Shown here piece after piece: positions 1-24,459 of a stretch of 64,000 nt of DNA. Position 1 is the first letter of the stretch. Each line of letters opens with the position of its first letter. A program made the position numbers and the translations under genes. Origin of the DNA: an uncultured Prevotella sp. (GTDB lineage Bacteria; Bacteroidota; Bacteroidia; Bacteroidales; Bacteroidaceae). The notes beneath the pieces were generated by a model. It was not told the DNA's origin. It made no database searches and saw only the letters and a program-made list of their open reading frames with translations. The DNA lies in assembly GCA_905234145.1 (NCBI GenBank), contig CAJOGK010000001.1, forward strand, positions 62,001 to 126,000, read 5' to 3'.

Positions 1-1
1 G

Positions 2-142
2 AAATTTGTAGTTGCTTATGGGCATGAAACCATCAAGATTTGGGATTACCCTCTGTTACAGAATCTAATAGATCGTACTAACTCTCTTTTCCGAAATCGC
101 AAACTAACCGAAGAGGAAAAGGACATATTCCATTTGGAATAG
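2..142 (+). CDS. C-terminal end of a WD40-repeat protein (partial, probably a TIR-WD40 paralog starting upstream)
   Basis: Frame 2 reads KFVVAYGHETIKIWDYPLLQNLIDRTNSLFRNRKLTEEEKDIFHLE*, matching the C-terminus of ORF 14376-17009 (NTIRIWNFPSLQELIDETHERFKDNPLTSEERKIYYLD*). Confidence 0.75.
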   Translation, partial: KFVVAYGHETIKIWDYPLLQNLIDRTNSLFRNRKLTEEEKDIFHLE

Positions 143-154
143 AGTCTGACAGGG

Positions 155-275
155 TAAAACAAAACAAAGATTATTTCGCATTTATAAGTTACAAACGTGA
201 GGATATTGAATGAACTATATGGGTACAACATGAGTTGGAGCATTATCATCTGCCTGAGCAGATAAAACAGGCATA
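155..275 (+). pseudogene. Degenerate TIR-domain N-terminal fragment
   Basis: Translation QNKDYFAFISYKREDIE*TIWVQHELEHYHLPEQIKQA* aligns with the TIR starts at 3475 and 14376 (EYFVFISYSSLDNEWAIWLRHELEHYHLP) but has an in-frame stop and is cut short. Confidence 0.75.
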
Positions 276-335
276 GTGATAGAACCAGACTCTTAAATGA
301 CTCTTTATTATGATAGTCAATGATTAAAACGAAAT

Positions 336-629
336 ATGATGAAACAAGTAAAGTACACACCGCAGCCTATTGACACTACGGATGTCAAGCTGCCAGAGGA
401 ATTAGAACAATTGGTAGAGCAGATGTCAAAGAACGTACATGAGGTATGGGCCGAGACTCGTATCAAGCAAGGATGGAAGTATGGCGAGCAACGCAATGAT
501 GATTTGAAAACTCATCCATGCCTTGTACCGTACGAGGATCTTCCAGAAGTTGAAAAAGAGTACGACCGCAATACTTCTATCGGCACACTAAAGCTGATTA
601 TGAAGCTTGGATTCAAAATTAGTAAGTGA
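336..629 (+). CDS. Stand-alone RyR (ryanodine receptor repeat) domain protein
   Basis: QPIDTTDVKLPEELEQLVEQMSKNVHEVWAETRIKQGWKYGEQRNDDLKTHPCLVPYEDLPEVEKEYDR is characteristic of the RyR domain family. Confidence 0.85.
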   Translation: MMKQVKYTPQPIDTTDVKLPEELEQLVEQMSKNVHEVWAETRIKQGWKYGEQRNDDLKTHPCLVPYEDLPEVEKEYDRNTSIGTLKLIMKLGFKISK

Positions 630-655
630 TTTTGAGATCAAAATGATTATAACGT

Positions 656-1054: not shown

Positions 1055-1257
1055 GGAGTTAGACATCTTTTTGTGCTTTGCACTTACTGGGTGTTTTATG
1101 CAGTTGATAGACTCTATTTTGGAAATTTTTCTATGAAAAACTTGTTTGTTTCAATTATTCTTTGTATTTTTGCAACATCTCCAAGAATTTGATACACCCT
1201 TGCAAAGGGTTGCATGATGGTTCTTATTTAAAATTTAACTTAGAGGACTTAATCACA

Positions 1258-2355
1258 ATGTATAAAATAATCAGAAGTAAATATCTGGCTTCAGAGTCTC
1301 TGCTTAAGCAGATTGTTGGGGCTGTTTTTGAGCATTGGCAGCTTCTGTGGGTACTGTTACTTTTGTTAATTGCCCCATTGCTGACTATGTGGGTAGCACC
1401 TAACATTTTCAATGTTATTATTAATAATTTCTGGTATCAGTTGGCATTCCTAACCATTTTGGTAATGCTAGCGATAGCTGTATGTCGTAAATTGACTGAC
1501 ATCTTTAGTCTACGCAAAAAAGAAATTTGTATTACCTGGTGTCAGATGTCCATTTTGATAGCCGTTGGTATATGGATTATTGGTTTTATGATTATTTTCA
1601 ATACCAAGAGTCATCCCCGTTATGCAGCAGCTCTTGCAGTTATTGGAACATTGACAGCATGGATTTTTCAGGATACAATAAAGGGAGTCGTAGCCTTTAC
1701 TCATTTACGGCTCAATCATCAATTATGCATTGGAGACTGGATAAAAGTTCCTAAATACAATGTAGACGGTGTTGTAACGCGTGTTTCTTTAACGAACGTG
1801 ACCCTTTACAACTGGGATACGACGACGGCATCCATTCCTACAAGTGTCTTGCATTCTGATTATTTCGTAAATCTTCAAAAGATGAGGGATGGTAAAACCT
1901 ACGGGCGCCGAATGTACAAAACGTTTATTTTTGATACAGGTTGGTTCCATTTGTTGTCCGCTGAGGAGGCAGAAGAATTGAGATCGTCAGAAGATATTGT
2001 GAGGTATCTGCCCAAAGAAGAGATTAAAGAAGGCATGCTAAACGCACAGTTATTCAGGTTGTACTTGTTTCATTGGTTGATGAATAATCCGCATATATCC
2101 CAGCAACCGAGCCTTATCGTCCGTTGGATGGAACAAGTTGAATTTGGCATGCCTTTGCAAGTTTATGCTTTCATCACCGATACTGCCTTGTCTTCGTTTG
2201 AATGGCGACAATCTCAAATCATCGAGCATATTTTTATGTCAATTGATTGGTTTGGTCTTCGCCTGTATCAGAGTCCATCCAGCTACGATGTCAGCAATAG
2301 TAATATCCACTTAACGGATAAGGCTGCAACTTACAGAAAGGAGGATAATCTATGA
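1258..2355 (+). CDS. Mechanosensitive (MscS-family) ion channel
   Basis: Multiple TM helices followed by IFQDTIKGVVAFTHLRLNHQLCIGDWIKVPKYNVDGVVTRVSLTNVTLYNWDTTTASIPTSVL, the MscS core. In-frame ATG at 1258 preferred over 1162. Confidence 0.85.
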   Translation: MYKIIRSKYLASESLLKQIVGAVFEHWQLLWVLLLLLIAPLLTMWVAPNIFNVIINNFWYQLAFLTILVMLAIAVCRKLTDIFSLRKKEICITWCQMSILIAVGIWIIGFMIIFNTKSHPRYAAALAVIGTLTAWIFQDTIKGVVAFTHLRLNHQLCIGDWIKVPKYNVDGVVTRVSLTNVTLYNWDTTTASIPTSVLHSDYFVNLQKMRDGKTYGRRMYKTFIFDTGWFHLLSAEEAEELRSSEDIVRYLPKEEIKEGMLNAQLFRLYLFHWLMNNPHISQQPSLIVRWMEQVEFGMPLQVYAFITDTALSSFEWRQSQIIEHIFMSIDWFGLRLYQSPSSYDVSNSNIHLTDKAATYRKEDNL

Positions 2356-3482
2356 GTGAGATGAGAGAAAAACCGTTCGAATATTTAAGGAGAAGAGAGA
2401 ATGGATCAAAGTTCGAGGACGAAGTTGTTAAGAACTGGTATATCGCCAGAGCCTTCATCTTGGACAAATTAAGCAACATCGCTTTTAAGCCCAATTCAAA
2501 TGAGCATCTGCATGTTGTGGTTACGGATGATTGTCCGTTGATGTTATATATTGTTAGGCAGGTAGCTCTTTCTGCCCACTACATAAACTATGATGAAGAG
2601 AATGAATACGAATCTCTTAGAAATCGGACGGTTATCACGTTGGTAAGCAAAAATCCAGACATTAAGAGGGAATTAGAGAAGGAAGAGTATCTCTGTAATC
2701 TTCCTAAATATTGCAAATATAAGGAAGGTAATTCTAAGTCTCAACATGAAGACTCATACATTGACATAGAGATACAGGTTGTATCGGAATTATCCGATGC
2801 AGACAAGTTAAACTGTACTTTTGTCCTGAATAAAGAAGATGTGGAGGCCTTTTGCAAACAGAAGGCGGAAAGAGGAGAGGATATCTATAGTATAGATACG
2901 AGAAAGGCTGTATATGCAAGCAAGATGTATAGTTTAGGTGCAGTTATAGAAAATTTACCAGCAGAAGATATTCATTGCACCAGTCGATACCTCATGGCAC
3001 TGAATGTTTTTCAATATAGCAAGTTGAGAGATAAGCCTACACCTCTAATGGATGAGAGCATTTGTAATAACCAAAGCAGAGTGAAAGAAAGGCTTTCCAA
3101 TCTTTTCTGCTCTGATTGTTTTGAATCGCGATGTTTGAGTATTCTTTTATGTAGTAATGGTGATACCAAAAAGGAAAGAAAAATATGGGAAGACAACAAT
3201 AGAGTTTTGTCAAGAAGCGAACATGCACGTTGGGTTGTTGAAAAACTAATCATGGGTTATAGTCCATTAAGCGAGGAGCAGCGTTTCAAGGATGAAAGTT
3301 TGTTTTACGACAATAAGAAAAAGACGTTATATCGTAAAGCTTTGAAAAATGATTCCAAGAATCCTTCCCACATAGATTTGTGTTCTTATGCAGATTTGCG
3401 ACGAGTCAACCCAGCAGATCTGAAGTATGACAGTTTCCTAATGCTTGCGATCCCCATAATACTAAAAAAGGTAAATGAATAA
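2352..3482 (+). CDS. Rossmann/RCK-like protein with C-terminal RyR-like domain
   Basis: Starts inside the stop of the MscS gene (ATGA overlap). C-terminus SEHARWVVEKLIMGYSPLSEEQRF...KNPSHIDLCSYADL parallels the C-terminus of ORF 22232-24310. Confidence 0.7.
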   Translation: MSEMREKPFEYLRRRENGSKFEDEVVKNWYIARAFILDKLSNIAFKPNSNEHLHVVVTDDCPLMLYIVRQVALSAHYINYDEENEYESLRNRTVITLVSKNPDIKRELEKEEYLCNLPKYCKYKEGNSKSQHEDSYIDIEIQVVSELSDADKLNCTFVLNKEDVEAFCKQKAERGEDIYSIDTRKAVYASKMYSLGAVIENLPAEDIHCTSRYLMALNVFQYSKLRDKPTPLMDESICNNQSRVKERLSNLFCSDCFESRCLSILLCSNGDTKKERKIWEDNNRVLSRSEHARWVVEKLIMGYSPLSEEQRFKDESLFYDNKKKTLYRKALKNDSKNPSHIDLCSYADLRRVNPADLKYDSFLMLAIPIILKKVNE

Positions 3483-5685
3483 TTTGATTGACGGCAGGTA
3501 TCAGTATTTTGCGTTTATCAGCTATAAACGGGAGGATGAACGTTGGGCAAAGTGGCTACAGCATGAACTGGAGCATTACAATTTGCCGTCCAATCTAAAC
3601 GGTAGGACGGATTTGCCAAAGGAAATCCGTCCCGTATTTAGGGACACCTCAGAACTGACACCAGGAAATTTGCCAGAGCAGATACGTCAGGCTCTTGAGA
3701 TGTCGAAATATCTCATTGTCGTATGTTCGCCCCGTTCGGCTAAATCTGAATGGGTAAACAAGGAGATAGAGTATTTTATCTCCATAGGTAGAACAAGAAA
3801 TGTTATCCCCTTTATCGTCGATGGCAAAGCGTTCTCAAAAGATATTTTTGAGGAATGTTTCCCTTTGGCTCTCCGAAAACTGCCACAGGAACAGGAACTA
3901 CTTGGCGCCAATATCAACGAGATGGGGCGCGATGCGGCTGCGGTGAAAGTAGTAGCACGGATGTTCGATATTCGTTTTGATGAGTTATGGCAACGACACG
4001 AGCGAGAAAAGAAAAGACGCAGAATAATTCTCATAGCATCTGTGGCGCTTTTTGTTATAGCTGTTGTCGGAGTCGCTTTCTGGATGTACCTTCAACGGCA
4101 GGAAACCTTGCGCGCCAACTGGAAGATGATGGAGAATCAGGCGCGTATGGTGGCAGAAAAGTCTAAAGAGGAAGTGAAACAAGGCCATACCTATGATGCC
4201 ATCATAGCATTACTTGAGTTGTTGCCAGATGATGGAAGCCGTCCTTTTGTGCCTGAACTGGAAGAGGCCCTGCGCACAGCATACGATTCATTGAGGTCGC
4301 ATCGGTGGAATGTGAGATATTTCAATCGGAGTTATGACCTGATGACATTTGCAGGCGATGATAGATATATTGTTTGCGAGGACGACTCTTTAGTTGACAT
4401 CTACGAATCCAAGAACTTGCACAAGACTGCGGAGTTTAAAATGCCGGAAAACTTGCGCGGCTTGCCTTCATTCCTTTCTTCTGCATGCGACTCTATTTTT
4501 GTAATGGATACCCTATGTGTTTGGTGTTATTCTATTCCAACAGAGAAACTCATCAAGAAAATGGACTATACTGAGACTACTCTTGACATGTGCATGAATG
4601 CCTGTTGCGATATTATAGGTTACCAGGAATGGCCTTGGATAAAAAGGTGGATGAAAAATAAGGGAATCCCTGATAACGTTGTCATAAGGGGATATAATCC
4701 ACGTAAACAGCTCTTGCTCTATAGTCAGGAAGTTGAAAACACAGAATTCGATATCCAAAGTTATTATATGCTCTATGATTGTAAAAAAGGTAAAATTGCA
4801 AAGGTTTTAGATAATCATGGGAAACCCTTTAGTGCTAATGCGTGGATAGATATAACTAGCACTTCTTTTTCGCCTGACGGCGGTAAACTTGCTATTGCAT
4901 ACATGAATGGAAAAGGGATAATACTTGATTTGGATGATTATTCAGAAGTTCCTTTTGATTGTGGAAATAGTGATGACTGCGCGCATTATTCTAATGTTTT
5001 GACATATGGGCGCAATGGCCAGATTCTTCATACGTCAATTTATGATTCATTTAAAATCTTCGATGGAAATTCACTTGCTCTTGTCGATTCTGTTCCCTCA
5101 TTCTTCTCTGATGCGAAGTCTGGGGAGATGAATTCCGCAGGCAATATCTGTATGATAGGAGATACAGACGATTGTTTTGTGTGGTATCTAAATGAAAAAG
5201 ATTCAAGCAAGGATGTGCATGGCAGATTTATAGAAATAAACAAACCAGAGGATAATTTAATCAGTAATAGGTTCAATATTTTTAATGATGAAGATGGTGC
5301 CCTTTGTTTTGAGGACAGAAAAGGTGAATACAAGTCATGGAGAAAGATTGAAAAAGGAAAGTATTTGGAAATAAAGGGTTACTTCCAAGATTATCAGTAT
5401 ATGGTAGTAACCAAAGGCGGTTTCAGAGATGCTCAGTATGGCTCTGAGGTCATAGATGTTGTTACAGGAACAACGGTATACCATTTTCCTTCAGACATAT
5501 ATTATGTTGATCATGTATATTATAACAGTGAGTCGGAACAAATGACTATAGGTAATTCCGATGGGCCATTCCTAGACAGTATAATAGATTTCCCGTCTTT
5601 TAAGAAATTGGTTGACTTATGCAAAAAGGCTACCGAAGGTATGGAACTTTCTAATAATTCTAGAAGATTATTCTATTTAGACTAA
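3475..5685 (+). CDS. TIR domain - TM - beta-propeller-like protein
   Basis: YFAFISYKREDERWAKWLQHELEHYNLP...VVCSPRSAKSEWVNKEIEYF (TIR), TM helix IILIASVALFVIAVVGVAFWMYL, WD-like C-terminal half. Confidence 0.85.
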   Translation: MNNLIDGRYQYFAFISYKREDERWAKWLQHELEHYNLPSNLNGRTDLPKEIRPVFRDTSELTPGNLPEQIRQALEMSKYLIVVCSPRSAKSEWVNKEIEYFISIGRTRNVIPFIVDGKAFSKDIFEECFPLALRKLPQEQELLGANINEMGRDAAAVKVVARMFDIRFDELWQRHEREKKRRRIILIASVALFVIAVVGVAFWMYLQRQETLRANWKMMENQARMVAEKSKEEVKQGHTYDAIIALLELLPDDGSRPFVPELEEALRTAYDSLRSHRWNVRYFNRSYDLMTFAGDDRYIVCEDDSLVDIYESKNLHKTAEFKMPENLRGLPSFLSSACDSIFVMDTLCVWCYSIPTEKLIKKMDYTETTLDMCMNACCDIIGYQEWPWIKRWMKNKGIPDNVVIRGYNPRKQLLLYSQEVENTEFDIQSYYMLYDCKKGKIAKVLDNHGKPFSANAWIDITSTSFSPDGGKLAIAYMNGKGIILDLDDYSEVPFDCGNSDDCAHYSNVLTYGRNGQILHTSIYDSFKIFDGNSLALVDSVPSFFSDAKSGEMNSAGNICMIGDTDDCFVWYLNEKDSSKDVHGRFIEINKPEDNLISNRFNIFNDEDGALCFEDRKGEYKSWRKIEKGKYLEIKGYFQDYQYMVVTKGGFRDAQYGSEVIDVVTGTTVYHFPSDIYYVDHVYYNSESEQMTIGNSDGPFLDSIIDFPSFKKLVDLCKKATEGMELSNNSRRLFYLD

Positions 5686-5725
5686 AAACAGCAAGATATT
5701 ATATAAATCTAAAAAACAAGTTATT

Positions 5726-5950: not shown

Positions 5951-5959
5951 TGAGACTGT

Positions 5960-7006
5960 ATGGACAATGATATTGTAGAACTGGGATTATGGGCTGTAGC
6001 CATTGTGGTTGGTCTCATAGTTCTCAGGTTCCTATTACGTAGTTGTGTGCATGTGCTGGAAATATTTTATTATATGTTTTTCAGGGCACTGTCTTTCCTT
6101 TTCAGTTTTCTGAATGGGCTACAGCGTCACTTGTCAAAACCCTGGCGGGCGCTTTACAAGAAGCATCATGGCTCTGATGGAATAAACAAGTTCATGCGAG
6201 GATTTTGGACAATCATAAAGATCCCGCTTTATGTTGTCCTAACCCCTCTTCGATTTGTAAATGCGGTATTCTACAATATTGTTGTTCATAGTAGTTTTGA
6301 GTTCTTCAATTATCTTTCGGAAATTATAGATCCAACCTCAAAGAAAGAAGGAGGTTTTAACTTTGTCACATGGACATTGTTGATGCCGCTGAGGATAATC
6401 AAGTATGGCTGGCATTACCTGCTTTCATTAATAGAATGTATCATTTGGACGGTTATCGATACGATCATACCGGCTCTCACTCTCTATCACGGAACCAGCC
6501 ATGAAGCCAGTGAGAGTATTTGTCAAAGCCCGGGACGCATAGGAGCCAAAGACTGGTATAGTGGCGTCTGGAATGTAGGTGGAGGTAATTTTGCTGGCAA
6601 CGGCATCTATTTTGCTCCTGTACGAAGGACATCAGAGCATTATGCCAGATTTAATACTAATAAATCCTTGATAATCTGTCGCGTTTCATTGGGAAAAGTT
6701 ATAGACCTTGGTATGGCACCGAAGTATGTATATAACCAATGTGGGTCTTCAAATGCTTTAGAGGCTACAAATTGGGGATTAAAGAATGGATACACAACTG
6801 GTGAATGGTGGCGAAGTGACGAAGGGTGGTGGGAATATTGTATGTACGACTGGCAAAATCGCTATAATTCCAGTTGGAGGATAAGACCGTTATATGTAGA
6901 GGATCTCAACAACAATCTTATTCTTCGTATTCCTGGAGGAATGGCACATTGGCTTTTCAGGAAAATGGTTATCAAGGATCTCAAAGAATCTATTTTTGGA
7001 AAATAA
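5960..7006 (+). CDS. Membrane-anchored PARP-like ADP-ribosyltransferase
   Basis: N-terminal hydrophobic helices; C-terminal half has LYHGTS, GNGIYFAPVRRTSEHYAR and WWEYCMYDWQNRYNSSWRIRPLYV, matching the H-Y-E arrangement of PARP-type ARTs. Confidence 0.7.
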   Translation: MDNDIVELGLWAVAIVVGLIVLRFLLRSCVHVLEIFYYMFFRALSFLFSFLNGLQRHLSKPWRALYKKHHGSDGINKFMRGFWTIIKIPLYVVLTPLRFVNAVFYNIVVHSSFEFFNYLSEIIDPTSKKEGGFNFVTWTLLMPLRIIKYGWHYLLSLIECIIWTVIDTIIPALTLYHGTSHEASESICQSPGRIGAKDWYSGVWNVGGGNFAGNGIYFAPVRRTSEHYARFNTNKSLIICRVSLGKVIDLGMAPKYVYNQCGSSNALEATNWGLKNGYTTGEWWRSDEGWWEYCMYDWQNRYNSSWRIRPLYVEDLNNNLILRIPGGMAHWLFRKMVIKDLKESIFGK

Positions 7007-8225
7007 AGCTATTATGGATGAATTAAAAACAAAATACGACGTATTTATAAGTTATTCGAGAAAAGACACGGAGATTGCTGACAAGATTTGTCAGGTTTTT
7101 GACAAAGTGGGAATTACCTATTTCATTGACCGACAAGGAATTGGTGGCGGTATGGAGTTCCCAGCAGTGCTAGCAAAAGCAATCAAAGAAGCAACGGTGT
7201 TCCTTTTCTTGGCTAGCAAGAATTCCTATGCATCCAAATTTACGCAAAGTGAGATCGTTTATGCATTTAATAAGAAGCAAAAGCAAAATATCATTCCGTA
7301 TATCATTGATGGTAGCACTATGCCCGATGAATTAGAGTTCACTTTTTCTGCTATTAATTGGAGACGGATGGATAGTCACCCAATAGATACTGTTTTGGTA
7401 AACGATATTCTTTTCAAAGTTGGGAAGCAAAGAAAAATAGGTGATGAGAACGGACTGCCGAAAGATTCCGGGAGTAACGATGACAAGCATCAAAAAGCAA
7501 ATTCTTATGCCAGACTTATAGAAAAGTATTTTACCAATAGTAACTTCTCCGGAAAACATTTGGCCTGGATTGTATTGGCTTATTCTATATTGTTGTTCAT
7601 AGTGATGGCAATCCTCAGCAAGAACTATATCCAGACTCATTACTCTACTGTTGAGAATGTTGTAATGATTTCTATTGTTACTTTTCTCCTATTCACAGTA
7701 GTAGGCATTGTTCGTCCGGCAAGTATAGCACTTCATAATAGAAAAGAAGTTCTTAAATTCTATTTATCATCTGCCATTATTTCATTTGCGTCTTTGTTAT
7801 TTCTTACAGGTAATAAGAATGTCATGAAGTCACCCGACAATGAAATCCAACAACTTGATTCGATCCGAAACGCGAATGAACAAGGATTGCCAAACCTCCA
7901 TTTTGAGAATGGAGCATATTTTTACAAAGGCACTTTTGTTGACGAGGACCAAATACCATATCCAGTAGAAATCCAATTCACGTATTCAAACGGACAATTA
8001 TCTAATTGTATCTACCACAATGTAACAATCAAAGGTAAATTGAAGATGGAAGGAGCAATTATCAATGATTCTCTTCGATTAAAGGGCAAAGCCGGAAGTC
8101 ATGACTTTTCAATTGTGTTAGGCTGCAAGGATACTTCCCAGTATCTTGAAGGTTACGCACTAGATGAAGAAAAGAGACTTGAGGTTTCATTAAAGAGTAC
8201 ACTGCCATCGAACAAGGACAAGTAA
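6996..8225 (+). CDS. TIR domain protein with C-terminal TM helices
   Basis: YDVFISYSRKDTEIADKICQVFDKVGITYFIDRQGIGGGMEF...; TM segments LAWIVLAYSILLFIVMAIL etc. Confidence 0.85.
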   Translation: MENKAIMDELKTKYDVFISYSRKDTEIADKICQVFDKVGITYFIDRQGIGGGMEFPAVLAKAIKEATVFLFLASKNSYASKFTQSEIVYAFNKKQKQNIIPYIIDGSTMPDELEFTFSAINWRRMDSHPIDTVLVNDILFKVGKQRKIGDENGLPKDSGSNDDKHQKANSYARLIEKYFTNSNFSGKHLAWIVLAYSILLFIVMAILSKNYIQTHYSTVENVVMISIVTFLLFTVVGIVRPASIALHNRKEVLKFYLSSAIISFASLLFLTGNKNVMKSPDNEIQQLDSIRNANEQGLPNLHFENGAYFYKGTFVDEDQIPYPVEIQFTYSNGQLSNCIYHNVTIKGKLKMEGAIINDSLRLKGKAGSHDFSIVLGCKDTSQYLEGYALDEEKRLEVSLKSTLPSNKDK

Positions 8226-8233
8226 CAATATTT

Positions 8234-12237: not shown

Positions 12238-12450
12238 ATGGAACAGAATAAAGAATATTTCGTTTTTATAAGTTATTCCAGCTTGGATAATGAATGGGCG
12301 ATATGGCTCAGGCATGAACTGGAGCATTACCATTTGCCTGCTTCGTTCAACGGACGGACTGATGTGAGGGACAATCTGCGAAAAGTATTCCGTGATAGGG
12401 ATGAATTGAGTGCAGGCCCAGAATGGGACGAACAGGTACAAAAGGCTTAG
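12238..12450 (+). pseudogene. Truncated TIR-domain duplicate (first ~70 aa only)
   Basis: MEQNKEYFVFISYSSLDNEWAIWLRHELEHYHLPASFNGRTDVRDNLRKVFRDRDELSAGPEWDEQVQKA* is nearly identical to the N-terminus of ORF 14376 and ends abruptly at the same residue. Confidence 0.85.
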
Positions 12451-12534
12451 TCCGTTGACTCGAAAAATCACTATTTATTGATTTTTCAAAGGTATATAAG
12501 GATATTATCATCAATTTGAGTAGACATTAGTGAT

Positions 12535-14379: not shown

Positions 14380-17009
14380 TAAGGGAAAAAGAATATTTCG
14401 TTTTTATAAGTTATTCCAGCTTAGATAATGAATGGGCGATATGGCTCAGGCATGAACTGGAGCATTACCATTTGCCTGCATCGTTCAACGGACGGACTGA
14501 TGTGAGAGACAATCTGCGAAAGGTGTTCCGTGACAGAGATGAGCTTAGCGCTGGGCCAGAATGGGACGAACAGGTGCAGAAGGCTTTGGAAGAAACGAAT
14601 AATCTTATTGTTATTTGTTCTCCTCATTCTGCAAAATCAGATGCAGTGAATAAAGAAATCGAGACATTTATAGCCTTAGGAAGAGAAGACCATATATTCC
14701 CATTCATTGTTGAGGGTGACAAACTGGAGGATTGTTTCCCTCCTGCTCTTAGACATTCCAAACTTGGTGGAGATGTCAATAAAGACGGTGGTCGCGACTC
14801 TGCTTTTATTAAAATAGTAGCTGGTATGCTAAAAGTCAGTTTCCCTAGCCTTTGGAATCGCTATGAGATAGAAAAAGCTGAAGAGGAAAGAAAGATTCGA
14901 GAGCAGCGTGATAAGCTTCTAATCATGCAAAGCCGTTTCTTGGCGGAGAAAGCCAATGCACTTGTTGATGAAGGGGATTCATACCTTGCAAGAAAAATAT
15001 TATTAGAGGCTCTTCCAGAAAAAATAAACCAACCCAATCGTCCATTGGTAGTAGAAGCTGAGGCTTCGCTACGAAATGCAAGTTGTTCCAATTGCGCAAT
15101 ACTAAAGGGCCACACACATATAGTCTCATTTGCAAGATTCAGCCCTGATGGGAAGCGTATAGTTTCAGCATCATGGGATGACAGCATTAGACTATGGGAT
15201 GTGAAATCTGGAGTTGAACTGATAAAAATGGAGGGACACCATGGTTTTGTCTTTTCTGTCAATTTTAGTCCTGATGGTAGTCGAATTGTTTCAGCATCAG
15301 ATGATGGAACTATCAGAATTTGGGATGCAAATATCGGTTTGGAATTGAGACAGCTAAAATGGAAAAGAAGTTTTCCATCTGAAGAATATCAAAAGCACAA
15401 CGGTCATGATGATATTTGGTTAAGCTTGAGAATGATGGAAGAGAACGAAAGCCATGCTCAATTTGCCACTTTCAGCCCTGACGGGAAATACATTGTTTCG
15501 GCTATGGGTGACAAAACCATACGAATATGGGATGCCGACAATGGGCAAGAAATTAAGGTATTGGAAGGACATAAGTCAGAAATCAATTCTGTTGACTTCA
15601 GCCCCGATGGGAAACATATTATCTCAGCATCATATGATGGAACAGTCAGAATATGGGATGCTTCTACAGGTCAGGTAATAAGAAAAATTGAGGGTGAAAG
15701 AAGATTCAATTATGCAAATTACAGTCCAGACGGGAAGTACATTGTTACGGCTTCGGGGGATAATACAATAAGAATATGGAACGTAACAAATGGAGAGGAG
15801 GAATATAAACAGGAAGAGCATACAGATAACATCAATTCCGTCGCTTTTAGTCCTGACGGGGAGTACATTATTTCGGCATCAGATGATGGGACGATAAAAA
15901 TTTGTCATTGGAGACACTACAAAGTTATTAGGGTTTTGCGGGGACACACAAAGAAAATTAAATCTGCTTTTTTTAGTCCTGATGGGAAATACATTGTTTC
16001 AGCTTCTGAAGATAAAACAATCAGATTATGGCCATTCAGTCAAGAATCAAAGATATTGCGAGGGCATACCCAATATGTGAATTACGCTACTTTTAGTTCG
16101 GATGGAAAAATAGTTGTTTCAGCTTCCAATGACAAAACTATCAGAATCTGGGATACCGCTACAGGACGGGAATTAAAAGAACTTAAAGGTCACACTTCTG
16201 ATGTTTGTTCCGCCATCTTTAACCCAGATGGGAAGAGGATTGTTTCTGCATCCCTCGATAACACCATCAGAATTTGGGATGCAGAAACAGGAAAAGAAAT
16301 ATGGAAACAATTTGGACGCGATATCAATAGGAGGGGTATTCTTTTCGCCACTTACAGTTCTGATGGGAAATATATCGTTTCGTCTGAGTACTTCGACATA
16401 ACAATATGGGATAGTAAAACGGGAGAGGAATTTAAGAAAATGATTGGAAATGCTGGATTTATCAATTATGTGGAATTTAGCCCCAATGGAAAATATTTAG
16501 TTTCTGCACACGACAATCATACTATTAGTATTTGGGATATCGAAACTGGTTTCGAACTCAAAAGACTACTAGGTCATAATTCCGATGTTTGCACTGCCGC
16601 ATTTACTCCTTGTGGGAAATACATCATTTCGGCATCACGGGACGGAACTATTAGGAAATGGGATGCAATTACAGGCCAGGAAATATGGAAAAAAGAAATC
16701 GATACTGAATTTCGATATGCCAAATACACACTTGACGGAAGGCACATCATTACGGTATCACACGATAATACTGTCAGATTTTTAGATGCAGACAATGGGA
16801 TGGAACTAATGAGCTATAATAGTCATATAGGTACTGTTAGATCTGCACTTTTCAGCCCTAATGGGAGGTGTATTGTTTCTGAATCTGACGATAATACGAT
16901 TAGAATCTGGAATTTCCCATCTCTACAAGAACTTATTGACGAAACTCACGAACGATTCAAAGATAATCCTTTGACTTCCGAAGAACGAAAGATATATTAT
17001 TTGGACTAA
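14376..17009 (+). CDS. TIR - WD40 repeat protein
   Basis: N-terminal TIR (EYFVFISYSSLDNEWAIWLRHELEHYHLP...SPHSAKSDAVNKEIETF), then many FSPDGK.IVSAS.D.TIR.WD repeats. Confidence 0.95.
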   Translation: MIREKEYFVFISYSSLDNEWAIWLRHELEHYHLPASFNGRTDVRDNLRKVFRDRDELSAGPEWDEQVQKALEETNNLIVICSPHSAKSDAVNKEIETFIALGREDHIFPFIVEGDKLEDCFPPALRHSKLGGDVNKDGGRDSAFIKIVAGMLKVSFPSLWNRYEIEKAEEERKIREQRDKLLIMQSRFLAEKANALVDEGDSYLARKILLEALPEKINQPNRPLVVEAEASLRNASCSNCAILKGHTHIVSFARFSPDGKRIVSASWDDSIRLWDVKSGVELIKMEGHHGFVFSVNFSPDGSRIVSASDDGTIRIWDANIGLELRQLKWKRSFPSEEYQKHNGHDDIWLSLRMMEENESHAQFATFSPDGKYIVSAMGDKTIRIWDADNGQEIKVLEGHKSEINSVDFSPDGKHIISASYDGTVRIWDASTGQVIRKIEGERRFNYANYSPDGKYIVTASGDNTIRIWNVTNGEEEYKQEEHTDNINSVAFSPDGEYIISASDDGTIKICHWRHYKVIRVLRGHTKKIKSAFFSPDGKYIVSASEDKTIRLWPFSQESKILRGHTQYVNYATFSSDGKIVVSASNDKTIRIWDTATGRELKELKGHTSDVCSAIFNPDGKRIVSASLDNTIRIWDAETGKEIWKQFGRDINRRGILFATYSSDGKYIVSSEYFDITIWDSKTGEEFKKMIGNAGFINYVEFSPNGKYLVSAHDNHTISIWDIETGFELKRLLGHNSDVCTAAFTPCGKYIISASRDGTIRKWDAITGQEIWKKEIDTEFRYAKYTLDGRHIITVSHDNTVRFLDADNGMELMSYNSHIGTVRSALFSPNGRCIVSESDDNTIRIWNFPSLQELIDETHERFKDNPLTSEERKIYYLD

Positions 17010-17095: not shown

Positions 17096-19309
17096 ATGAA
17101 GACTATTAAGATAATGATTGCAGCATCGGAAGAGATGCACGAGGAAAAGTTAGAATTTTCAAATCTTATTGAGCATCTTAATGAGGTGCTTGAACCAAGA
17201 GGTATTGAATTGAAGCGCATTAAATGGAATCCGGAAACAGATGGCTCTATTGAGGAGTATAAGGCAAAACTCAAAGAGTGTGAGATGTGCCTTACTCTCT
17301 ATTGGCGTGACCTGGTTGGAAACTCAAAAGAAGGACTGGATACGGCCTATCAAGAGCTAAAAGCTGGCAATAATCCTCGTAACCTATATGTATTCTTTAA
17401 AGAGCCAACAGAAGATTTGACAGAGACACTTAAAGACTTCAAGGCAAATTTCGTCACCAAATATGGACACTTTTTCTGTAAGTTCGAGAATGTGGATACC
17501 ATGAATCTGCATTTCATTCTTCAGTTTGAAGCTTATCAGAACCATTTGCGTATTAAAGACGATCCACTTGTTAAAGTCGCAGGTGGCAAGGTTACGGTAG
17601 CTGACAAGGAATTTGTCAACCTTGACAACGTTCCCTTTGCTGCTCTTAACAAAGAATACCAACGGTTGCAGAAAGAATTATTAGAACTTGACATTCGAAT
17701 AACAGAGGTAAGAAAGCGTCACAAAGCAAATCCTGATAATGAAGACATAGAGGATGAACTGATGGCGATAAAGTCGAAACGCAAGAAACAGGCAGACGAA
17801 TTTGAGAAATACCAGATTCACTTATACGACATAGCACTCAACTTTGCCAAGACTGCAGGCGAGAAATACTCAGAGCGAATGCGTAAGGCTCGTGAACTCT
17901 TTGAGTTGGGTGATGTCATCGGAGCAGACCAGATTCTGAACATGGAAGAGATGAAACGTGACAGACTGCATGAATCTGAACATAAGAAGGTACATGAAGA
18001 AAATCTTGAAATACTGATGAATGAATTTCTCGACAAGACAAAAACCGTCATGACCAATACGCTTTTTTCTATTCCTGAAAGATTTGGCATAGCATGTGAG
18101 GCGTATGAAGAAGCAAAATCCATAGCAGAGGAAATTCATCTTGATGAAGAGAAATTTGCCAACATTCTCTTTGATTATGCACATTTATTGGATGAATATC
18201 ATCGAATAGACAAGGCCCTGTCATATTATTCTTATGCTTTAGATTTGCTTAGAAAACTTGCTTTAACAGATGATACATCTTTGTATAATATAGCTTGTGT
18301 TCAAAATAGTATGGCTAATCTATCTGCTAAAAATGGAAATCCCCAAAATGCAGAAGACGACTATAGCCAAGCGATAGAAACATTGAATAAAACAAAAGAT
18401 GATAACGCTGTAATGTATCTGAGATTTACAGCAACAATATATCACAATCGCTCAATACTACAGTGTAATCTCGGAAATTATAAAGAAGCTGAGATGGGAT
18501 TTGAAATAGCTTTGAGGATATATGATACACTTATAGAATCTTCAACCGAAATCTATCTAGATGAGAAAGCAGCAACTTTAGGTGAAATGGCCGTATTGCA
18601 TAGAAAAATGGGAACTCTTGAAAGTTACCAAAAAGCTGAAAATGAATATCTCACTGTCATAGAGATATTCAATCAGTTGGGGAAAAACGACTCTGACGAA
18701 TATATGCATAGAAAAGCTGGCGTTATCAATAATCTAGGAGTCCTACTATTTGCTCAGGAACGATATGAAGAAGCCGAATGCAAATATAGAGAAGCATTGG
18801 AAATAAGAGAGAAATTAGCAGGAAAGAATCCAGAAGTTTATTATCCTGAGTATGCAGAGACCTTAAATAACATTGGAGGCCTATGCTGTATAACTGGTCG
18901 GGACAACGAAGCGGAGAAATTGTTCACCGAGTCATTGGGCATCTGGGAACATGTGGCGAAGGCAGAACCTAAAGCGTTTCAATGTAAAATAGCAAGACTA
19001 AAATATAATCTTGGTCAGTTGTTCCGTAAAAGACATTCACTTTATGAAGCAGAACAAATGCTATGCGAATCCGTTGATTTATTTAGAAACATAGGTGAAG
19101 ATGCGAAGTTATACAAACCAGATATGGTGAATGCACTTTTTATGTTAGCCCTTACAAAAGCTTCGTTAAAGCAATTTAAGGAAGCAAGAGACTTGTCATC
19201 GGAGGCATTATCTCTATTTGAGGATATGGAAAAGACAAATTCGGGGACTTATTCTGATATGATTGCCAATATTCAAAGTGTACTAGTCAAGTTAAACTCT
19301 TTAATATAG
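17096..19309 (+). CDS. DUF4062/TIR-like N-terminal domain + TPR repeats, paralog 1
   Basis: KIMIAASEEMHEEKLEFSNLIEHLNEVLEPRGIELKRIKWNPE...; TPR motifs such as EAECKYREALEIREKLAG. Confidence 0.8.
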   Translation: MKTIKIMIAASEEMHEEKLEFSNLIEHLNEVLEPRGIELKRIKWNPETDGSIEEYKAKLKECEMCLTLYWRDLVGNSKEGLDTAYQELKAGNNPRNLYVFFKEPTEDLTETLKDFKANFVTKYGHFFCKFENVDTMNLHFILQFEAYQNHLRIKDDPLVKVAGGKVTVADKEFVNLDNVPFAALNKEYQRLQKELLELDIRITEVRKRHKANPDNEDIEDELMAIKSKRKKQADEFEKYQIHLYDIALNFAKTAGEKYSERMRKARELFELGDVIGADQILNMEEMKRDRLHESEHKKVHEENLEILMNEFLDKTKTVMTNTLFSIPERFGIACEAYEEAKSIAEEIHLDEEKFANILFDYAHLLDEYHRIDKALSYYSYALDLLRKLALTDDTSLYNIACVQNSMANLSAKNGNPQNAEDDYSQAIETLNKTKDDNAVMYLRFTATIYHNRSILQCNLGNYKEAEMGFEIALRIYDTLIESSTEIYLDEKAATLGEMAVLHRKMGTLESYQKAENEYLTVIEIFNQLGKNDSDEYMHRKAGVINNLGVLLFAQERYEEAECKYREALEIREKLAGKNPEVYYPEYAETLNNIGGLCCITGRDNEAEKLFTESLGIWEHVAKAEPKAFQCKIARLKYNLGQLFRKRHSLYEAEQMLCESVDLFRNIGEDAKLYKPDMVNALFMLALTKASLKQFKEARDLSSEALSLFEDMEKTNSGTYSDMIANIQSVLVKLNSLI

Positions 19310-19314
19310 GAGAT

Positions 19315-21741
19315 ATGAAGATTATTAAAATAATGATTGCGGCATCGGAAGAGATGCACGAAGAGAAGTTAGAGTTCACGAACCTTATTGAGCATCTTAA
19401 TGAGGTGCTTGAGCCAAGAGGTATTGAATTAAAACGCATCAAATGGAATCCGGAAACAGATGGCTCTATTGAGGATTATAAGGCAAAACTCAAAGAGTGC
19501 GAGATGTGTCTTACTCTCTATTGGCATGACTTGGCTGGCAACTCAGAAGAAGAACTGGACACTGCCTATCAGGAACTAAAAGACGGCAATAACCCTCGTA
19601 ACCTTTACGTGTTTTTCAAAGAACCAACGAAGGATTTGACTGTGGCACTTAAAGATTTCAAGGCAAATTTCGTCACCAAATATGGTCACTTCTTCTGCAA
19701 GTTCGAGAACGTGGATACAATGAATCTACACTTTATACTTCAGTTCGAAGTATACCAGAATAACTTACAAAGCGGATTAATAGATGTTTCGGATGGCAAA
19801 GTGTCTGTTGGTGGAAGGGCAATAGTAAATCTTTCAAATATAGGATTTGCCGCTTTTAACAAGGATTATAAACGATTACAGTACGAACTGACGAAACTTG
19901 ACAGAGAGATTTCTTCCCTAAGTAAAAAACAAAAAAAGAATAACGGTGGCAAAGCCCTTGCAAAGCAGCTAAGGGTCGTAAAAGCTGAACGGAAAAAAAT
20001 TAAAGAGGAATTTGATGCATATCAGCTACATTTGTATTCAATAGCTCTTAATTTCGCCAAGAAGTCCGCAGAACAATATACAGAACGCATGGTTCGTGCT
20101 CGAGAGTTGTTTGAACAAGGTAATGTCATTGAGGCTGACCGCATCCTAGACATTGGAGAGTTAAAAAGAGAGGCTAATGCAGAACTTGCTCGTTTTGAAC
20201 AGCAGCAACATAATTTGGAATTGAAAATAGAGGAGTTCGTGCTAAAAGCCGATACCGTGATGGCGAATACATCATTGAGTGTTCCTGTGAGATTTAGACA
20301 AGCATGTGAAGCCGTAGAGGAAGCTATCAACATCGCGCGAAAAATCAATTACGACGAAGATAAGTATGCCAAATTATTGTATAGCTATGCAGTATTGCTT
20401 CAGCAATTCAATTACATGAAAGAGGCTGTAGATTATTATCAGAAAGCACTGAATATCCGTCGTCGGTTAGCGGCATTCACCCCAGATGTCCATCAGCCTA
20501 TTTTGGCAGAAATGCTCAATAATCTTGGAGCTCTTTTTTCAGAACTCCATCATTATAATGATGCAGAGAAGACTTTCCAAGAAGCCCTAAAGATTTATCG
20601 TCAGTTGACCTCTGTAAATTCAGATGCTTACCTGCAACATGTAGCGCTTTCACTCTGTAATCTTGGTGCCCTACTGATTAACGAGAGACGTCTTGCTGAT
20701 GCCGAAAAATACTTTCAGGAAGGACTGGAAATTCGCCGTAAGCTTACAGCTTCCAACCCAGGAAAGTATCAACTTGATTTGGCCGATACGCTATGTAACT
20801 TTGGCGCCTTGCAAGCAAAACTTAAGCACATTGACGATGCGGAGCGAAGTTTTCAAGAGGCATTATTGATTTACAACAAACAAGTTCCTTCCAAATCTAT
20901 AGAAATTATACCAAGTGTGTCAAATGTCCTTACTAATCTTGGCAATCTGAAATATGAACGTGGCTGCTATTCCGAGGCAGAAAAAGCATTGCAGGATGCG
21001 CTGAAGTTACGTCGAATGCTAGCAGATAGCAATCCAGATGCATTCCTGCCATATTTAGCGCAAACTCTTTATAACCTTGGAGCAGTACAATATCATCTTG
21101 ATAAATATGATGAGGCAAAGAAGGAGTGTGTGGAGGCTTTGAGAATTCTACGTCCTTTGGCTTCGTCCAATCCTGATGCCTATCTTCCAAATTTGGTAAT
21201 TGCACTAACCAATTATGGGTCTTTATTAGATCATCTTGGAAACCATGCAGACGCAGAGGAGAACATAATGGAGGCATTGGAGATTAATCGCCGACTTGCT
21301 GTGGAAAAACCTGACATATATATTAGTAATGTGGCAGATTCGCTTAATAATATTGCTATTGTACAAAAGAACCTAGAGCATTATGCTGAGGCAGAAAATA
21401 GTTATCAAGAGGCTTTGAGCATATATAGAAAATTGGTTAAGGTTTCATCGGACACCTATGAGCCAGATTTGGCCCAAACGCTCGGTAACTATGGTAACCT
21501 ACTAATAGTGCTTGACCGATATAAAGAGGCAGAGAAATATTACTCAGAAGCGCTGACGTTATACCTCCAATTGACTAATAAGTATCCCGGAACTTATCAG
21601 ACAGAAATAGCAAAAATGATTAAGAATATGAGTGATGCACAAGAAAATATAGGTCCAGGATTGATAACTAGGCAACTTTTTACTCTTAGGGAATGGTGCA
21701 AGAACGTCTATAACTCTATAATCAGGCTTTCTTCTAATTAA
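19315..21741 (+). CDS. DUF4062/TIR-like N-terminal domain + TPR repeats, paralog 2
   Basis: N-terminal ~150 aa nearly identical to ORF 17096; TPR motifs such as DAEKTFQEALKIYRQLT and DAEKYFQEGLEIRRKLT. Confidence 0.85.
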   Translation: MKIIKIMIAASEEMHEEKLEFTNLIEHLNEVLEPRGIELKRIKWNPETDGSIEDYKAKLKECEMCLTLYWHDLAGNSEEELDTAYQELKDGNNPRNLYVFFKEPTKDLTVALKDFKANFVTKYGHFFCKFENVDTMNLHFILQFEVYQNNLQSGLIDVSDGKVSVGGRAIVNLSNIGFAAFNKDYKRLQYELTKLDREISSLSKKQKKNNGGKALAKQLRVVKAERKKIKEEFDAYQLHLYSIALNFAKKSAEQYTERMVRARELFEQGNVIEADRILDIGELKREANAELARFEQQQHNLELKIEEFVLKADTVMANTSLSVPVRFRQACEAVEEAINIARKINYDEDKYAKLLYSYAVLLQQFNYMKEAVDYYQKALNIRRRLAAFTPDVHQPILAEMLNNLGALFSELHHYNDAEKTFQEALKIYRQLTSVNSDAYLQHVALSLCNLGALLINERRLADAEKYFQEGLEIRRKLTASNPGKYQLDLADTLCNFGALQAKLKHIDDAERSFQEALLIYNKQVPSKSIEIIPSVSNVLTNLGNLKYERGCYSEAEKALQDALKLRRMLADSNPDAFLPYLAQTLYNLGAVQYHLDKYDEAKKECVEALRILRPLASSNPDAYLPNLVIALTNYGSLLDHLGNHADAEENIMEALEINRRLAVEKPDIYISNVADSLNNIAIVQKNLEHYAEAENSYQEALSIYRKLVKVSSDTYEPDLAQTLGNYGNLLIVLDRYKEAEKYYSEALTLYLQLTNKYPGTYQTEIAKMIKNMSDAQENIGPGLITRQLFTLREWCKNVYNSIIRLSSN

Positions 21742-21746
21742 TAAAC

Positions 21747-22235
21747 ATGTTTCTTATGTCAACAAAGCAAATCTTTATTGCCTCATCTGCCGAACTAAAA
21801 CGTGAGCGGATGGAATTAGTAGACTTGATGCAAGATATGAATGATAATCTTGTAGAACAAAGCATCAAGTATAAACCTGTACCTTGGGAGTATATGGACT
21901 CGTCGATGAGGGCAGGACGGAAAGAAGATGAATATCTCGCAAAGTTACGAGAATGCGATATATGCATCGTGCTGTTTTGGCAAATCCTGGGGGAATATAC
22001 AGTAGAAGAACTGGATGTTGCCGTGGAAGAAATGCGATCAGGAAGATGTCCAAAGGAAGTGTACGTGTTCTTCAAAGAGCCTGCCGAAAACGCTTCAGGA
22101 GAACTCATTTCATTCAAAGAAAACTTCTGTAACAAGTATCAACTCAATCCTGAAACGTTCAACGATATTAGGTCATTACGTAAATTGGTAGAAGGTATTC
22201 TGCAATCATTCATTACAAACATTAAGGGTATATGA
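21747..22235 (+). CDS. Stand-alone DUF4062-like (TIR-like fold) protein
   Basis: KQIFIASSAELKRERMELVDLMQDMN...LRECDICIVLFWQILGEYTVEELDVAVEEM; start overlaps that of downstream channel gene. Confidence 0.75.
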   Translation: MFLMSTKQIFIASSAELKRERMELVDLMQDMNDNLVEQSIKYKPVPWEYMDSSMRAGRKEDEYLAKLRECDICIVLFWQILGEYTVEELDVAVEEMRSGRCPKEVYVFFKEPAENASGELISFKENFCNKYQLNPETFNDIRSLRKLVEGILQSFITNIKGI

Positions 22236-24310
22236 AACAATCAACAAGACTACACAATTGGTTCCTGAAATTTGACAGGACATTCTCGGACAAAATATGG
22301 TGGCAGATCTTTATTCTGCTGGGATTTGTAATAGGATTAGTTATCTGCTATTTCCTAACTTTCGGAGAGAACTGCAAGAATGTGAATTTCTTCGAGTGGG
22401 CTTTGTATCTGCTCATAGATGGCAACGCGCTCAGTAACATCTATACGGATACTTATCCAGAGGGAGGTCGCCCATGGTTAACTCTTCTATTTTCAATTCT
22501 CGGTTCTCTTCTTGGAGTAATTGTTTTTGGCGGCATGCTCATATCCGTGCTGTCAAACATGTTGGAGCGTCGCATTGAGAACTACCGGAAGGGTAAGAAT
22601 ACGTATGTTATAGATAATCATTACGTCATTCTTGGCTATGATGAGATTGTTCCGTCTATCATCAAGCAGATATGTACCAATAAAGATGCTTACGTGCTAC
22701 TTCAGAGTTCTTTTCCCAGCGAGGAAATTGCGGAAAAGATACATTCGTCTATCGCACAGGACTGCGAGAAACGTGTGATTATCAAAAATGGACATCGCAC
22801 ATCAGTTAATGATTTGGAAGAGCTGAAACTGAACCAGGCATGTAGCATCTATATTGTCGGCGACAGGACAATGCCCTCGCACGATGCCATGAACATCGAT
22901 TGCATGGAAAAGGTTTACGCGATTCTTGATAAAAATAAGGATAAAGGACTGCCGGAAAGTATCACGACTGTATTTGAAGACCAGGATACCTATGCTGCTA
23001 TGCAGGTAGCTGACTTGTTTGACAACATCCGTCAATTAGGTATAGAGTTCATTCCTTATAATTTCTATGCTGATTGGGCCAAACAGATGTTTGTGGATTG
23101 CCATTATACCGACAATGAAGAAGAACAACAATATCCATCCATTGACGGGAATGGCATCACTGAAGATGACCACCACCATGTGCATTTGGTAATTGTCGGT
23201 ACATCAAACTTCGGTGTGACTTTGGGCGTTGAGGCCGCTAAGATGCTTCATTTCCCCAACTTTAAGAAAGGACAGAATCTGACTCGTATCACCTTCATTG
23301 ATTTAAATGCCGACAAGGAAAAAGACCTGTTCATGACACGTTACCGTCATTTCTTCGAAATACAATCGCATTGGTATGATGGGAAGAAATATCCTGCAAC
23401 GAAATTCGAGGGCGAAAAAGCCGACTTTTTGGATGTGGAATTCGAGTTTATCAAAGGCGATGTCTATTCAGCGCAGATACAGAAACTGATTGCTGATTGG
23501 GCTTCCGACGAAACACAGCTGTTGTCTCTCATATTTGCTATGAGAGATTCGCGTCACAACATGGCCATTGCAATGAACTTGCCAGACGAGGTGTATGAGA
23601 AAAATGTATCTGTCTTTGTCAGGCAAAACACTTCAAGTAAATTTCTGGCGAAATTGCACGAGAAGTCAGAAATGTTTACAAAGAAAATCCTCGTAGAGAA
23701 TAATGAAGCTAAAGAAATACCATTGAAGGGGCGATATGCCAATCTCTATCCTTTTGGTATGACAGATATTATCTTCGATGTTGATAAACGAGCCCAAAGA
23801 ATGGCAGAGTGCATCAATCATCTTTATTGTAAGTGTGACGAACTGCAATGGGCAAGAATACCGACCTGTGAAGAAGTCAAAAACTGTACGTGGGATGAAA
23901 TCCACAAGAAGTGGATTAGTCTGCCTGTTGCCCTCCAGTGGTCAAACCTTTATAGTGCATATAACATAGCCTATCGTATCCATACCATTAAGGCCATGCG
24001 CAATAGCGATGCTGATATTACTGAGATAACGGATAAAGAGGCTGAGACACTTGGGCGTGTAGAACATGATCGCTGGAATGTGGAAAAACTATTGTTAGGC
24101 TATCGCAAACCCTCAGAAGCAGAAGACTATTACTCAAAGAGAAATTTCGTTAACGGCAAGAAAGTGAAGGCCATGAAGAATGCCCATAAGGAGTTATTTA
24201 TCCATTGTGACATTAGGCCATACACCGAACTAGACGAGATACAGGAGATTGACAAGGAAATCATCCGTTACATCCCCTGGTTCATAGAAATGGCTAATAG
24301 AAACAAGTGA
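22232..24310 (+). CDS. Ion channel: TM pore region + tandem RCK/TrkA-N Rossmann domains + C-terminal RyR-like domain
   Basis: TM WWQIFILLGFVIGLVICYFL and LLFSILGSLLGVIVFGGMLISVLSNML; YVILGYDEIVPSIIKQI and VHLVIVGTSNFGVTLGVEAAKML Rossmann motifs; GRVEHDRWNVEKLLLGYRKPSEAEDYYSKRNF C-terminus. Confidence 0.8.
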   Translation: MKQSTRLHNWFLKFDRTFSDKIWWQIFILLGFVIGLVICYFLTFGENCKNVNFFEWALYLLIDGNALSNIYTDTYPEGGRPWLTLLFSILGSLLGVIVFGGMLISVLSNMLERRIENYRKGKNTYVIDNHYVILGYDEIVPSIIKQICTNKDAYVLLQSSFPSEEIAEKIHSSIAQDCEKRVIIKNGHRTSVNDLEELKLNQACSIYIVGDRTMPSHDAMNIDCMEKVYAILDKNKDKGLPESITTVFEDQDTYAAMQVADLFDNIRQLGIEFIPYNFYADWAKQMFVDCHYTDNEEEQQYPSIDGNGITEDDHHHVHLVIVGTSNFGVTLGVEAAKMLHFPNFKKGQNLTRITFIDLNADKEKDLFMTRYRHFFEIQSHWYDGKKYPATKFEGEKADFLDVEFEFIKGDVYSAQIQKLIADWASDETQLLSLIFAMRDSRHNMAIAMNLPDEVYEKNVSVFVRQNTSSKFLAKLHEKSEMFTKKILVENNEAKEIPLKGRYANLYPFGMTDIIFDVDKRAQRMAECINHLYCKCDELQWARIPTCEEVKNCTWDEIHKKWISLPVALQWSNLYSAYNIAYRIHTIKAMRNSDADITEITDKEAETLGRVEHDRWNVEKLLLGYRKPSEAEDYYSKRNFVNGKKVKAMKNAHKELFIHCDIRPYTELDEIQEIDKEIIRYIPWFIEMANRNK

Positions 24311-24329
24311 GTTATGAAAAAAATCAAAT

Positions 24330-24459
24330 AACTACATCCCCCAACCCATTGACACCTCTGATTCTCAATTGCCAGATGGGTTGAACCCGTAGCACGAGAC
24401 AATAGCCAAGAACGACCATGAAGTTTGGCACTTCATACAAACAAACGACATCATTTGAT
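24330..24459 (+). pseudogene. Degenerate RyR-domain fragment
   Basis: NYIPQPIDTSDSQLPDGLNP*HETIAKNDHEVWHFIQTNDII* aligns with YTPQPIDTTDVKLPEELEQLVEQMSKNVHEVWAETR of ORF 336 but has in-frame stops and no rest of domain. Confidence 0.8.

Follow-up and report, generated by a model that had tools for sequence, protein, structure and literature searches.

A cluster of TIR, RyR and ion channel genes in a Prevotella genome: candidate Thoeris-like cassettes

The DNA considered here is a window of 64,000 nucleotides from an uncultured Prevotella (bases 62001-126000 of contig C1; genome of 3.1 Mb, 85% complete, Bacteroidales type). From position 1 to 24.5 kb it is occupied by an island of genes for TIR enzymes, RyR domains and membrane channels. 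The island begins outside the window, some 9.5 kb further upstream (G000:C1:52526), and this upstream part holds four further TIR proteins, one of which runs into the window and ends near position 141. All ten TIR_2 matches found in the 85%-complete genome lie within the island (C1:53.6-76.8 kb). The nearest RyR relatives of this genome are found in Prevotellaceae.

Within the window, the island comprises four intact TIR proteins, two TIR relics and three DUF4062-type domains, which are TIR-like (Table 1). The RyR set consists of one standalone RyR protein, one anti-sigma factor with a RyR domain (anti-sigma-RyR), two RyR-like tails and one RyR fossil. The putative outputs include an MscS-type and an RCK-type channel, and there is besides one PARP-like ADP-ribosyltransferase (ART). 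A preliminary description of this DNA, made from the sequence letters, had listed five or more intact or decayed TIR domains, three DUF4062-like domains, five RyR or RyR-like domains counting the fossil, two channel types and the ART; domain matches, iterative searches and structure models bear this inventory out.

Several gene junctions overlap. The MscS and RyR-like genes share 4 base pairs (bp; 2352-2355), the RyR-like gene and the following TIR gene 8 bp (3475-3482), two neighbouring TIR genes 4 bp (14376-14379), and the standalone DUF4062 gene and the RCK channel gene 4 bp (22232-22235); the ART gene overlaps its TIR neighbour at 6996-7006. Such overlaps suggest three output cassettes: the MscS channel and soluble RyR-like protein with a TIR, the RCK-RyR channel with DUF4062, and the sigma factor with the anti-sigma-RyR. 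The ART and TIR pair may form a fourth. The island, which the preliminary description had treated as one system, is several cassettes. An H-Y-E motif of the ART was picked out by eye (YHGT / GIYFA / EYCMYD), and among related RyR loci only one other (L132) has an ART adjoining TIR and RyR; its participation in a TIR/RyR pathway is an unproven, candidate role.

Table 1. Genes and gene remnants of the island within the window
Feature	Position	Strand	Evidence and remarks
Truncated TIR relic	154..264	+	between upstream TIR protein and RyR gene; tblastn 85% identity to first 34 residues of upstream TIR protein, then stops
Standalone RyR protein, 97 residues, intact	336..629	+	PF02026 9.6e-38; HWHD residues present
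MscS-type channel	1162..2355	+	MS_channel beta-domain 4.4e-8
Soluble RCK2-like + RyR-like protein	2352..3482	+	related to C-terminal half of RCK channel; tail without Pfam match
TIR + transmembrane + beta-propeller-like protein	3475..5685	+	TIR_2 1.8e-16; catalytic Glu present
Membrane-anchored PARP-like ADP-ribosyltransferase	5960..7006	+	PARP 2.7e-7
TIR + transmembrane protein	6996..8225	+	TIR_2 1.7e-19; catalytic Glu E86 within aligned stretch
Anti-sigma factor: zf-HC2-like N-terminus, C39/papain-like domain (C86, H181), RyR C-terminus	8234..9214	-	RyR 3e-29
ECF-like sigma factor, partner of anti-sigma-RyR	9204..9794	-	family of 22
Truncated TIR relic, partial duplicate of TIR at 14376-17009	12238..12483	+	84% identity over residues 1-80
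SpbK-like TIR protein	12535..14379	+	TIR_2 2.7e-9; PADLOC spbK 6e-16; Glu present
TIR-WD40 protein	14376..17009	+	WD40 repeats; TIR_2 1.3e-16 in genome-level search; Glu present
DUF4062-like (TIR-like) + TPR protein	17096..19309	+	TPR; N-terminus joins DUF4062 family by iterative search only
DUF4062-like + TPR protein	19315..21741	+	N-terminus near-duplicate of gene at 17096..19309; DUF4062 by iterative search only
Standalone DUF4062 protein	21747..22235	+	DUF4062 6.4e-5, just under Pfam cut-off
RCK-type ion channel with C-terminal RyR-like domain	22232..24310	+	structure model; tail without Pfam match
Fossil of standalone RyR gene, downstream of channel	24321..24551	+	at most 72% identity over 36 residues, then stop and lost frame; PF02026 32.7 bits with TAG

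Sensor domains, channels and enzymes

Two proteins of the window, the standalone RyR and the anti-sigma factor, pass the Pfam cut-off for the RyR domain (PF02026). A Pfam scan of the tails of the soluble RyR-like protein (2352-3482) and of the RCK channel (22232-24310) gave no RyR score. These tails join the family only by iterative search and profile comparison (E 1.2e-4) and through relatives of the RyR-like tail, which score above the RyR cut-off.

A ligand site for this family is described in a 2026 preprint (PMC13232231). Phage PF02026 proteins bind 2'/3'cADPR (cADPR, cyclic ADP-ribose) via His75, Trp78, His100 and Asp117, and one of them cleaves it; most of the phage homologues assayed bind without cleavage. 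The equivalents of these four residues (HWHD) can be followed through the proteins related to those of the island. In an alignment of 15 standalone RyRs, the equivalents of H75, W78 and D117 occur in all and that of H100 in 14; among 33 RyR-like tails, the four are found in 32, 33, 30 and 30 members. The channel family (23 relatives) has only 18 invariant columns, and H612, W615, H658 and D674 are among them. Likewise, H291, W294, H340 and D360 of the soluble RyR-like protein are invariant in four relatives. The anti-sigma RyR domains conserve the H, W and D of the set, the H100 equivalent being variable (N, N, H, D) and D in the protein of the window.

Phage homologues that have these residues mostly bind the ligand and do not cleave it, so that the HWHD set speaks for binding rather than catalysis. 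With the contact residues of the phage proteins conserved here, the RyR domains of the island may by analogy bind a ligand as well. For the small standalone RyR next to these genes, the most likely role is tuning of the signal, whether as a sponge, a hydrolase or a gating subunit; its relatives adjoin RyR-tailed channels or TIRs.

Phages also carry relatives of the standalone RyR (L172-L184 in IMG/VR; 126 records in INPHARED). Two records of human-faecal phages show 66-70% identity to the standalone RyR of the window over its whole length. The phage RyRs did not form one clade in a tree, and since this tree has 97 columns and is weakly resolved, it carries no weight.

A sequence search of the PDB with the RCK channel gave no match, and structure prediction was therefore needed. 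The resulting model (monomer; pLDDT, the predicted local distance difference test, 85; pTM, the predicted template modelling score, 0.81) was compared by Foldseek and matches Slo1, the CASTOR gating ring and GsuK, the last also in entries with bound ADP or NAD. The scores of these matches are modest (template modelling scores of 0.3-0.56, with long root-mean-square deviations), probably owing to a different placement of the pore, RCK and RyR parts. The predicted fold is that of transmembrane pore helices joined to an RCK gating ring.

The soluble RyR-like protein is related to the C-terminal RCK half of this channel together with its RyR-like tail, and is predicted to be a sensor or gating partner of the MscS channel. 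The gene order MscS, RyR-like, RyR recurs in G003 and G201, which belong to two other families. A PADLOC scan found no model for any of three proteins, namely the RCK channel, the MscS-type channel and the soluble RyR-like protein.

Signal production would fall to the TIR and DUF4062 domains. The catalytic Glu is invariant in 14 aligned TIRs, of which eight are all the intact TIRs of the island. This agrees with the enzymatic role that the preliminary description gave them. The TIR protein at 6996 kept the same catalytic position in the alignment; a PDB sequence search with this protein found no match. DUF4062 proteins were reported in 2026 to be TIR-like NADases, one member being anti-phage (PMC13174449). 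Such an activity fits the placement of DUF4062, which precedes the channel in the window and is found close to RyR channels elsewhere (G107, G211 and G245, in a search of 16 genomes). The candidate Glu of the standalone DUF4062 protein at 21747 was picked by eye only.

The transcription arm of the island consists of a putative extracytoplasmic function (ECF) sigma factor and its anti-sigma-RyR. In related loci, the sigma gene directly precedes that of the anti-sigma-RyR in 14 neighbouring pairs. Within the sigma family, region 4 scored in one member only, that of L067 (Sigma70_r4_2 4e-11), and the zf-HC2 score of the anti-sigma N-terminus lies below the cut-off. In the middle domain of the anti-sigma factor, C86 and H181 are invariant in two alignments (22/22 and 16/16), and the third active-site residue is D or N. 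The structure model matches the RyR structures 3nrt and 6uag, the C39-like peptidase 3erv and the papain-like CtaG. The middle domain is thus modelled with a C39/papain-like protease fold and a Cys-His(-Asp) site, and is a putative protease; ligand-triggered proteolysis may follow from this arrangement.

Genes for PrsW-family intramembrane proteases (PF13367) occur within three of the RyR/TIR loci (L114, L126 and L141), twice beside the anti-sigma-RyR. The PrsW family cuts anti-sigma factors, as PrsW of B. subtilis does.

RyR and TIR genes across genomes

The preliminary description had drawn its link between RyR and TIR from this locus, and the two turn out to lie together elsewhere in Bacteroidales and in other Bacteroidota as well. 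In a survey of 247 Bacteroidales genomes, RyR was found in 25, a relative of the channel in 17 and TIR_2 in 93. With the home genome left out of the linkage counts, 12 of 28 RyR matches have a TIR_2 match at a distance of 10 kb or less, where uniform placement expects 0.3. Type I methylases of the same genomes, a control that covers one defence family only (matches at E <= 1.2e-11), were within 10 kb of a TIR in 0 of 71 cases (Fisher 3e-8 against RyR). A TIR is present in 19/24 RyR genomes and in 73/223 of the others (p 1.3e-5).

A second sample was taken from GTDB. It consists of 79 RyR loci, drawn from the best 80 of at least 563; as almost all come from Bacteroidales, the sample is biased. 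Some partner lies within 10 kb in 70 of these loci: a TIR is found in 42, a large RyR-tailed protein in 52 and an anti-sigma-RyR in 17. Neighbouring genes are repeatedly arranged in the same order, as in operons, namely a RyR-tailed gene followed by a standalone RyR (18 cases), a TIR followed by RyR (13) and a RyR-tailed gene followed by a TIR (10).

Outside the order Bacteroidales, a TIR lies within 7 kb in most of the few RyR genomes that do not belong to genus g222 (G259, G280, G462, G248 and G335). The simplest arrangement is a bare two-gene unit, in which a TIR and an RCK-RyR channel stand back to back. It is found in G259, G462 and G248, with gaps of -11, 4 and 23 bp.

In genus g222, a near-universal protein of about 900 residues with two C-terminal RyR domains (L213, L214, L218 and L219) resembles AAA/STAND + RyR proteins of G146 and G217. 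In L162, on a contig labelled Butyrivibrio, a RyR, a RyR-tailed protein and a TIR lie side by side; this may reflect transfer or a binning error, and the locus was not used as evidence.

A possible signalling pathway

The reading favoured here, to which a probability of roughly 0.6 is given, is that several Thoeris-like cassettes are clustered in the island. TIR or DUF4062 domains would make a signal, RyR domains would sense it, and channel opening and sigma factor release would follow. The process would start with a trigger, probably a phage, sensed via the WD40, TPR or propeller parts. TIR or DUF4062 domains would then cleave NAD+ (nicotinamide adenine dinucleotide) to give an ADP-ribose-type signal, to be bound by the RyR domains. 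Where the RyR-like domain belongs to an RCK-gated channel, or to the soluble RCK-like partner of an MscS-type channel, binding would lead to opening, and this in turn to membrane depolarisation or ion loss. Where the RyR domain is joined to a papain-like protease domain in an anti-sigma factor, binding would release the ECF sigma factor. The preliminary description had likewise proposed that RyR modules sense TIR products and gate channels and a transcription response. Linkage and the TIR glutamates speak for this proposal, and its ligand step is carried over by analogy with the phage proteins. What the analysis itself establishes are the linkage of the genes, their domain content, the conserved residues and the predicted folds; signal binding by the host RyR domains, gating, the ion carried, proteolysis and a part in defence are inferred.

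TIRs are paired with RyR outputs in many other gut bacteria as well, and this suggests an immune pathway with an alarm molecule that opens membrane channels. A broader claim is about as likely as not: that a new branch of TIR-signalling immunity is widespread in Bacteroidota, and that it uses RyR domains to let NAD-derived nucleotides gate ion channels and an anti-sigma factor of protease type.

The closest comparison is with Thoeris, which pairs a TIR enzyme (ThsB) with a signal-sensing effector (ThsA). Here too, a TIR with its catalytic Glu adjoins a putative sensor-effector gene, as in the overlap of the RyR-like gene with the TIR gene at 3475 and in the pairs of G259, G462 and G248, and minimal two-gene units exist. 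In contrast to Thoeris, the sensor is a RyR domain (PF02026-type) and not of SLOG, Macro or caspase type, and it acts through a channel, of RCK or MscS type, or through an anti-sigma factor. Neither SIR2-SLOG ThsA nor TM-Macro or caspase-like effector domains were found by Pfam and PADLOC among the island proteins scanned.

Phage RyDEP and the phage RyR sponges share with the island the domain family and the four ligand-contact residues. They serve counter-defence (PMC13232231), whereas the proteins here belong to the host and are fused to outputs or lie beside them. Swarozyc and related DUF4062 TIR-like NADases (PMC13174449) correspond to the DUF4062 proteins found upstream of the channel and near RyR channels in other genomes. 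Swarozyc is described as a NAD-depleting, portal-sensing complex, while DUF4062 is coupled to a RyR-tailed channel here.

Known RCK-gated channels (GsuK, Slo1 and CASTOR) resemble the modelled channel in having a tandem RCK gating ring after the transmembrane helices, but lack its additional C-terminal RyR-like domain and show 9-12% sequence identity to it. Another comparison is with the Repeat12 domain of the animal ryanodine receptor and with a 'putative ryanodine receptor' of B. theta (3nrt), which are alike in RyR fold and sequence. The animal proteins are calcium-release channels, unlike those here, where it is unrelated pores that carry the RyR unit. Finally, the type III-associated CARF-TM effectors are nucleotide-gated membrane effectors, which is also the working mode proposed here; the nucleotide, the sensor domain and the synthetase all differ.

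TIR nucleotide signalling itself is known, and what would be new are the sensor and the outputs. No host RyR effector coupled to a TIR was found in the literature searched, the coverage of which was partial, with Yirmiya 2025 (on TIR signalling systems) outside it. RyR domains are not discussed in PMC8195603 and PMC9503650, and host RyR effectors are not described in the accessible part of PMC13232231.

Some observations weigh against the proposed pathway. Five of the 25 RyR genomes have no TIR_2 match. One of the genomes surveyed, G021, carries a RyR-channel pair and has no TIR_2 match, and its channel may thus take a signal from elsewhere; a TIR needed in every RyR genome is thereby ruled out. 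Genus g222 has a near-universal AAA + RyR protein that is not near a TIR, and RyR alone thus does not imply this system. Most anti-sigma RyR domains are without the phosphate-contact His. In addition, the HWHD residues cannot separate a sensor from an enzyme, since most phage homologues assayed bind without cleavage (PMC13232231).

The main rival, which is rather unlikely, is that the RyR modules are off-switches that sequester or degrade the TIR signal against self-intoxication, comparable to the ring nucleases of type III CRISPR, while the channels answer something else, for instance NAD or ADP bound by RCK. This explanation is a good fit for the standalone RyR. Standalone RyRs conserve the His and Asp of the catalytic pair. 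Among the phage proteins, RyDEP acts as a glycosidase and other homologues act as sponges (PMC13232231). The channel fold matches include NAD- and ADP-bound GsuK. However, a mere sponge needs no fusion to a channel, and RyR domains are fused to two unrelated outputs, the channel tail and the anti-sigma factor; the channel family keeps all four HWHD residues without exception, and the anti-sigma factor likewise keeps H, W and D. Both roles may hold for different RyR proteins of one locus.

It is improbable that TIRs, RyRs and channels are separate systems gathered in the same hotspots by shared residence in defence islands. The window is indeed a defence hotspot, with a type III-D CRISPR-Cas system and spacer array downstream, and the TIR relics indicate turnover. 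Shared residence would not explain why the type I methylases, which are also defence genes, fail to lie near TIRs in the same genomes, nor why TIR and channel genes stand back to back in three non-Bacteroidales genomes. Overlaps of 4-8 bp, by which RyR-like genes of the window are tied to those for MscS, TIR and DUF4062, also speak against it. Anti-sigma factors with ECF sigma factors, MscS-like channels and lipoprotein-like genes are usual in envelope stress. Such parts are found here as well, including a lipoprotein-like gene, and in one genus, g222, almost all members have the AAA-RyR protein. Both points would suit a stress or homeostasis circuit, not directed at phages, in which NAD-derived nucleotides report the metabolic state and adjust ion flux and the ECF regulon. 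This is the least probable explanation of all, as the patchy spread, the duplication and the relics fit conflict better, as do the RyRs that phages carry and that are known to act against TIR signals (PMC13232231).

If the proposed pathway is correct, channels that sense cADPR-type signals by RyR domains exist in bacteria, and this would bear on the disputed direct action of cADPR on animal ryanodine receptors. It would supply simple bacterial channels in which cADPR-type gating through RyR domains can be tested, and would explain why phages carry RyR proteins. In bacteria, plants and animals alike, TIR enzymes rank among the main producers of immune signals, but few receptors of these signals are known. 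A receptor module that is found on unrelated outputs would offer a general route to the downstream half of TIR systems.

Neighbouring genes

A type III-D-like CRISPR-Cas locus directly follows the TIR/RyR island (window positions 31221-43471 and 43642-46579). It includes Cas6b, Cas10, Cas5/Cas7 proteins of type III-D, a Csx1-type CARF-HEPN protein, a CARF-TM-like protein and a long repeat-spacer array. Upstream of the window, at G000:C1:41239-49330, lies a series of large genes (for proteins of 585, about 900 and 1175 residues), one of which has a tubulin-like, glycine-rich start. A patatin-like phospholipase (49750-50664; PADLOC effector 5e-8) adjoins this series, and together they are possibly another conflict system.

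Two other proteins of the window appear to be split. One of these, a sulfhydrylase/lyase-like protein of Cys/Met metabolism, is distributed over two frames of the minus strand (50939-51736 and 51715-52134). The other is perhaps an N-formylglutamate amidohydrolase and occupies overlapping frames of the plus strand (29400-29840 and 29815-30111).

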